Positions 49,765 to 51,527 of a stretch of 64,000 nt of DNA are shown here, piece after piece. Under the pieces are notes generated by a model, which saw only the letters and a program-made list of their open reading frames with translations, was not told the origin of the DNA and made no database searches. Both the position numbers and the translations under genes were made by a program. The stretch spans positions 1-64,000 of the forward strand of contig NZ_JAFAGT010000085.1 of assembly GCF_019237615.1 (NCBI RefSeq), written 5' to 3'. This stretch comes from Roseateles sp. GTDB taxonomy: Bacteria; Pseudomonadota; Gammaproteobacteria; Burkholderiales; Burkholderiaceae_C. The stretch's first letter is position 1, and every line of letters begins with the position of its first letter.

Positions 49765-51099
<1,335 letters not shown>

Positions 51100-51112: not shown

Positions 51113-51150
51113 TGGTCAGGCCTCGGCAAATGCTGTATAAATTCACAGTA
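51113..51150 (+). promoter_or_regulatory. LexA (SOS) box overlapping a sigma-70-type promoter
   Basis: TGCTGTATAAATTCACAGTA (51131-51150; CTGT-N8-ACAG at 51133-51148); -35 TGGTCA (51113-51118), 17-bp spacer, -10 TATAAA (51136-51141) inside the box. Confidence 0.82.
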
Positions 51151-51169
51151 CTCACCGAGGAGCCCGACC

Positions 51170-51250
51170 ATGCACAACCAGTACCGCCAGAACTACGTCC
51201 CCGGCCGCCCGCTGCCCCGCTGGCTGCAGGTCCTGTTGCGCTGGCTCTGA
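51170..51250 (+). CDS. 26-aa cationic Trp/Leu-rich microprotein (candidate SOS-induced)
   Basis: MHNQYRQNYVPGRPLPRWLQVLLRWL; GAGGAG 7 nt upstream of ATG; directly downstream of the LexA box. Confidence 0.65.
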   Translation: MHNQYRQNYVPGRPLPRWLQVLLRWL

Positions 51251-51527
51251 ACACTGACGTCAGAAGTCGTCGGCCACGCGGGTAAAGCCCGCGAAGCGCG
51301 GCTTGCCGGGCGGCGTGAGGTCGCCGTAGCGGCCGGTCACCACCGCGCGCAGGGGCGTCGCTGCAGCCCGCGCCGGCCTTGAAGCGAACGCTGTCGGGCG
51401 TCTGCGGCACCAGCGCGCCGAGCCGGCCCTTGCCGGGCTCATGGCCGATGGCGTCGGCCTGCTGCCAGAGCTTGAGCAGCAGGTCGCTGCCGCCCGAGAG
51501 CAGCGCCGGCAGCGCACGCAGGGTCAG
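51251..51527 (-). pseudogene. Frameshifted gene remnant downstream of murB, family not identified
   Basis: Reverse frames join as [55 protein letters not shown] / ATPLRAVVTGRYGDLTPPGKPRFAGFTRVADDF*; no start codon. Confidence 0.45.

Follow-up and report, generated by a model that had tools for sequence, protein, structure and literature searches.

The window (the whole 64,000-nt stretch of DNA analysed here) contains, downstream of argG, a compact candidate unit made up of a promoter, a LexA operator and a 26-codon open reading frame. The features, with the neighbouring gene, are the following:

49783..51099, + strand: argG, argininosuccinate synthase (Pfam PF00764/PF20979), a neighbour outside the unit
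51113..51118, + strand: proposed -35 element TGGTCA, by inspection of the sequence only
51133..51148, no strand assigned: LexA/SOS box CTGTATAAATTCACAG, core CTGT-N8-ACAG, inside the extended 20-mer TGCTGTATAAATTCACAGTA at 51131-51150
51136..51141, + strand: proposed -10 element TATAAA, within the left part of the LexA box, 17 nt after the -35
51157..51162, + strand: Shine-Dalgarno sequence GAGGAG, 7 nt before the ATG at 51170
51170..51250, + strand: micropeptide gene, 26 codons plus stop, first ORF after the promoter, product MHNQYRQNYVPGRPLPRWLQVLLRWL
51185..51202, + strand: core motif R-Q-N-Y-V-P (R, Y and P invariant across 52 distinct members)
51215..51247, + strand: C-terminal 11-residue amphipathic segment P-R-W-L-Q-V-L-L-R-W-L, of fixed length, with P at -11 and W at -2 invariant

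Read directly from the sequence, the LexA box (51133-51148) overlaps the proposed -10 of the micropeptide promoter. At this level the original prediction was accurate throughout: its CTGT-N8-ACAG operator is correct to the base, TATAAA lies 17 nt after TGGTCA with the LexA box over it, GAGGAG stands 7 nt before the ATG, and the 26-residue product is Trp/Leu-rich and cationic, with four Arg and no acidic residue. A generic promoter scan made no call here because it requires a T at the final -10 position. Many relatives carry TTGGCA or TTGCAA at a similar position as -35 candidates (inspection only), and in most of them a GGAG-like motif precedes the micropeptide ATG. A longer in-frame start (a 72-aa GTG ORF) was ruled out: promoter and box fall inside that ORF, and the relatives begin at the ATG. 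On the other side of the gene, 51260-51517 (- strand) holds what appears to be left of a gene for an ATP-dependent DNA ligase, namely the C-terminal part (...GKPRFAGFTRVADDF) and broken pieces only; in one relative (L004) an intact ligase ORF, identified by eye, lies between murB and the micropeptide (up to 1487).

Such a layout could in principle be a chance ORF beside a chance or unrelated LexA box. The host genome (4.80 Mb) contains 16 CTGT-N8-ACAG sites versus 8 for a reversed control pattern, so that about half of its boxes would be background and a single box alone is weak, and 26 codons is within the length of random ORFs. That doubt is settled by the retention of peptide and box in all 20 genomes of the genus set (the window genome plus 19 other Roseateles/Pelomonas genomes; NCBI: Sphaerotilaceae, Burkholderiales). 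A single-sequence search of 101 genomes gave a full-length match (or 25 of 26 residues) in 20 of 20 genus genomes, with E values of 1e-7 to 1e-14; every copy has 26 codons, and about 36 nt ahead of each ATG stands a CTGT-N8-ACAG box, which in nearly all cases reads CTGTATAAA-N3-ACAG. The type strain R. saccharophilus DSM 654 has a copy too (L064). Selection on the peptide and co-conservation of box and peptide were among the tests that the original prediction had called for. Substitution counts in pairs at 70-98.5% identity, which are not independent of one another, give a pN/pS of 0.44 in frame versus 1.10 and 1.95 in the other frames, a pattern that shows purifying selection on the micropeptide in its own frame only. 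Box and peptide, for their part, are retained jointly while the neighbours change, the opposite of a peptide lost between conserved flanks. The description "downstream of argG" is true in the window but incidental, because basal relatives and other genera have the gene at other sites; six basal relatives (L015-L020) have an intact box and peptide at a site that is not next to argG. The chance reading is refuted by the fact that box, start, stop and residues are all conserved in at least 26 genera and in unrelated contexts; we assign it a negligible probability.

The profile built from the genus reached other genera, and those matches carried boxes. A combined pattern of box, 25-55 nt and RQ[NT]Y codons was found in 21 of 401 genomes of the family (9 genera); the reversed control gave 1. 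Beyond the family, about 385 genomes from some 50 further families of the order yielded no match, the pattern being blind to RQHY/RQLY members. With widened profiles, the membership grew to at least 26 genera, all belonging to the same GTDB family (counted at E <= 1e-5 in one widened search, with g135 and g148 added from another). These members encode 26-40 residues and share the consensus of an invariant R-x-x-Y-x-P followed by P-x-W-L-R-R-[ILV]-W-x-W-[LF]-stop; profile matches like TPVRPLPIWLA... (L031, L035, L040, L044) were discarded as chance matches inside other reading frames. Matches occur in 26 of the 141 genera sampled in the GTDB family; the gene is absent or undetected in more than 80% of them, and therefore is not an essential SOS step there. 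The searches are samples of genomes, in which the spread across genera may reflect gain or loss.

The original prediction recognised no known family in the sequence, and the peptide indeed has no match in Pfam or NCBIfam at E <= 1 or in the PDB at E <= 10, while PHROGs gave single-member matches only (best E 0.011). A phage or prophage origin was considered and rejected, since the 76 matches that box plus RQ[NT]Y gave in viral contigs were all unrelated; plasmid and phage records held no convincing relative, the peptide profile being too diverse for a viral scan. Literature searches, with subscription journals mostly outside their coverage, returned no description of the family. Among unnamed beta-proteobacterial SOS genes, the predicted LexA-regulated hypA (Sanchez-Alberola et al. 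2012) is reported only in multi-chromosome species and hypB only in Burkholderia (PMC3323433); compared by description, they would differ in distribution from the peptide and from the companion protein described below, and hypA might be one of the two. As far as sequence comparison reaches, the micropeptides are an undescribed family of tiny proteins with a LexA switch.

The association with the box can be assessed independently at 35 loci that were found by profile, the box playing no part in finding them. A strict CTGT-N8-ACAG lies within 130 nt at 22 of the 35, and a CTG-N10-CAG at 27, when the number of strict boxes expected for 35 loci is 0.015 (genome-wide rate) or about 0.23 (flank rate, 4 in 79,230 nt). 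The loci with no near box mostly have a box or a weaker CTG-N10-CAG box further upstream, several of them before a companion ORF. The distance from box to ATG is about 20-35 nt in most loci of the family, and base composition was tallied by column over 45 boxes. At some 15 peptide loci there are two boxes, 17-19 nt apart, and this tandem layout is common to the promoter of lexA itself: lexA is present, and in three genus genomes carries tandem CTG-N10-CAG boxes, CTGGATGAAAATACAG and CTGGACAAATT[GT]CCAG, 19 nt apart (one relative has the lexA box variant CTGGACAGATTTCCAG). The recA gene of the window genome carries the box CTGTACAAACATACAG. Judged from these lexA and recA boxes, the host LexA is predicted to use a motif of the CTGT-N8-ACAG type. 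From the conservation described above, the micropeptide is almost certainly a real translated product, and its gene is very probably LexA-controlled.

The other CTGT-N8-ACAG sites of the window genome, assigned by eye, lie upstream of recA (two loci), an integron integrase, mraZ, gmk and parE. The two recA genes (L074 and L077, on G000:C14 and C27), each with a LexA box, are either true paralogues or a sign of contamination (reported 1.7%). The integron-integrase-like gene (L073, G000:C13:54829-54844) has its LexA box about 58 nt before a possible start, again by eye. The box CTGTGTAAATCAACAG (L075, G000:C19:392-407) stands some 120 nt ahead of mraZ, with which the division/cell-wall cluster begins, and might link that cluster to the SOS response; at another locus (L213) a peptide gene lies about 500 nt upstream of mraZ.

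The genes that flank the peptide are diverse. When the best ORF on either flank was tallied by Pfam, no recurrent family emerged across loci: argG, a GDSL hydrolase, pyruvate dehydrogenase E1 and an amino-acid kinase are among the neighbours, mostly once or twice each, and the GDSL neighbour recurs four times, within the genus set. An operon with argG or with any constant neighbour was accordingly rejected, and the diversity of the neighbours argues that the micropeptide unit is kept for itself. In one genus (g15, L199) a DUF7661 protein (PF24697, E 1.9e-13) begins about 6 nt after the peptide stop, a layout that suggests a small putative SOS operon in that genus. In another (g118), dinB/Pol IV is the next ORF after the peptide in the same orientation and has the peptide promoter upstream of it. 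This arrangement, together with the strict linear motifs of the peptide, is what would be expected of a modulator of translesion synthesis or recombination that docks via short motifs on RecA, DinB, ImuB or the beta clamp. Elsewhere, however, no DNA-repair neighbour recurs, and ImuA is near universal in peptide carriers and non-carriers alike and hence gives no signal of co-occurrence; we regard a role of this kind as unlikely.

One partner does recur. An unnamed companion family of 60-75-aa proteins (MNAPL...EGVxRYVWESRFGxMLIEVxDGxxYVNGxxVEP; loci L234, L232, L233, L209, L228, L227 and L264-L277) adjoins the peptide at 11 places in 9 genomes. In genera g107, g145, g23 and g13 a LexA-type box precedes the companion ORF, which in turn precedes the peptide, with stop/start overlap (TGA/ATG) in some; in g137, g141, g93 and g87 the companion ORF is downstream of the peptide on the same strand. 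The companion has no match to Pfam, NCBIfam or PADLOC models, occurred in 0 of 54 genomes from other families, so that its sampled occurrence is limited to the GTDB family of the peptide, and was not found in viral contigs or phage records. The peptide and the companion might therefore make up a two-part SOS system, one of them serving, for instance, as effector and the other as modulator, as suggested by this adjacency, whether upstream or downstream, and by the LexA box that unlinked companions often have of their own (G112, G259, G009, G285, G251). Yet the companion is present in only 16 of 40 peptide carriers, which argues that the peptide usually works alone and makes an obligate toxin-antitoxin pair unlikely, and in the window genome it lies on another contig (L268, G000:C43:15006-15182, - strand) with no recognisable box. 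We consider the two-part system less probable still than the repair modulator.

Across the 52 distinct members, the anatomy of the peptide is strict in two places. In R-x-x-Y-x-P the R, Y and P are invariant, and Q occurs in 45 of 52; in the tail, P at -11 and W at -2 are invariant, with W at -9 in 49, L at -8 in 41, [ILV] at -5 in 51 and W at -4 in 43, and the final residue is L, F or C. The N-terminus and the linker between the motifs vary, while the last 11 residues are constant in length. Net charge ranges from +3 to +7. The original prediction had called the tail amphipathic, and its hydrophobic moment (0.59 versus 0.36 for shuffles, with 52 of 52 members exceeding their own shuffle) bears this out. 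The best 19-residue hydropathy window averages -0.5 and reaches 0.42 at most, values too low for a transmembrane helix, so the peptide would combine an amphipathic tail with a conserved polar recognition motif.

Bacterial lineages differ in their SOS division inhibitors and SOS toxins. The original prediction likened the peptide to TisB (E. coli tisB/istR-1, 29 aa), and both are LexA-controlled, very short, cationic and amphipathic. A TisB-like toxin would insert in and depolarise the inner membrane under severe damage, leading to dormancy; the SOS box, the short length, the charge of the members, the Trp/Arg tail and the tight repression that the tandem boxes suggest all agree with this. TisB, however, has a 20-residue transmembrane helix and an RNA antitoxin (PMC11449926), whereas the peptide family lacks any segment with the length or hydrophobicity needed to cross a membrane and has a short leader, the 20-35 nt between box and ATG leaving little room for RNA control. 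Rfam contains no RNA family that matches the locus, and a scan found no terminator- or promoter-like site (a novel RNA may yet be encoded there), so that no antitoxin RNA is visible. The invariant polar RxxYxP core, moreover, would be superfluous for a lytic peptide. On these grounds the likeness to TisB was not upheld, and toxicity of this type seems improbable; instead, we lean towards a specific partner over general membrane lysis.

A second comparison is SidA (Caulobacter, 29 aa), an SOS-induced division inhibitor that acts on FtsW and is likewise LexA-regulated, of the same size and from a lineage lacking SulA; SidA is an inner-membrane protein (PMC4211646), whereas the peptide family has no TM helix, the two being compared by description and not by sequence. 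By analogy, TisB and SidA are the nearest functional comparisons, and both are membrane proteins. DinQ of E. coli is also a short SOS-regulated peptide, toxic and with a single transmembrane segment; it is transmembrane and has antisense agrA/agrB RNAs (PMC3567139), and it differs in these respects from the peptide family, which has no TM segment.

The C-terminus of E. coli FtsA, SWIKRLNSWLRKEF, has a spacing similar to WLRRIWxWL of the peptide family. MinD has a C-terminal amphipathic membrane-targeting helix of a class like that of FtsA. Mimicry of the FtsA tail was rejected, as the host's own FtsA ends in ...VQTLLGRAKDWFMGNF, which is no close match; the likeness of the amphipathic ends is a class resemblance and not homology.

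Taken as a whole, the original observation is confirmed at the level of sequence, and more strongly than was apparent when it was made. We hypothesize that the locus is a gene of its own, repressed by LexA, whose product is a functional micropeptide of a new family, probably an effector that binds a specific partner and that may restrain growth or division or tune repair. DNA damage would lead to LexA cleavage and to induction of the micropeptide, whose C-terminal helix would settle in a hydrophobic groove or against the membrane on its cytoplasmic side, with the RxxYxP core binding a single specific partner; as a result, growth or cell division would be held back for a time, or repair would be tuned, until the DNA is restored. 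The tight repression by two operators suggests that undamaged cells are better off without the product. Restraint of division or growth as the outcome, read from the anatomy of the peptide, is a tentative suggestion. No canonical SulA was found in 40 genomes (seven matches fall in 250-337-aa frames, most coinciding with ImuA loci), and the peptides have no Pfam match and hence no SulA-domain homology; another SOS division inhibitor is therefore plausible, an argument that does not discriminate because genomes without the peptide also lack SulA. More speculatively, the partner-specific, non-transmembrane micropeptide and its 60-75-aa companion could form a lineage-specific DNA-damage checkpoint in bacteria without SulA.

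Because gene callers commonly skip such short ORFs, a whole family of peptides under SOS control may have gone unannotated in dozens of genera. With its strict motifs and tandem LexA operators, the family lends itself to immediate tests of a specific function, and in a clade apparently without SulA the peptide and its companion would be the first candidates for the missing effector.
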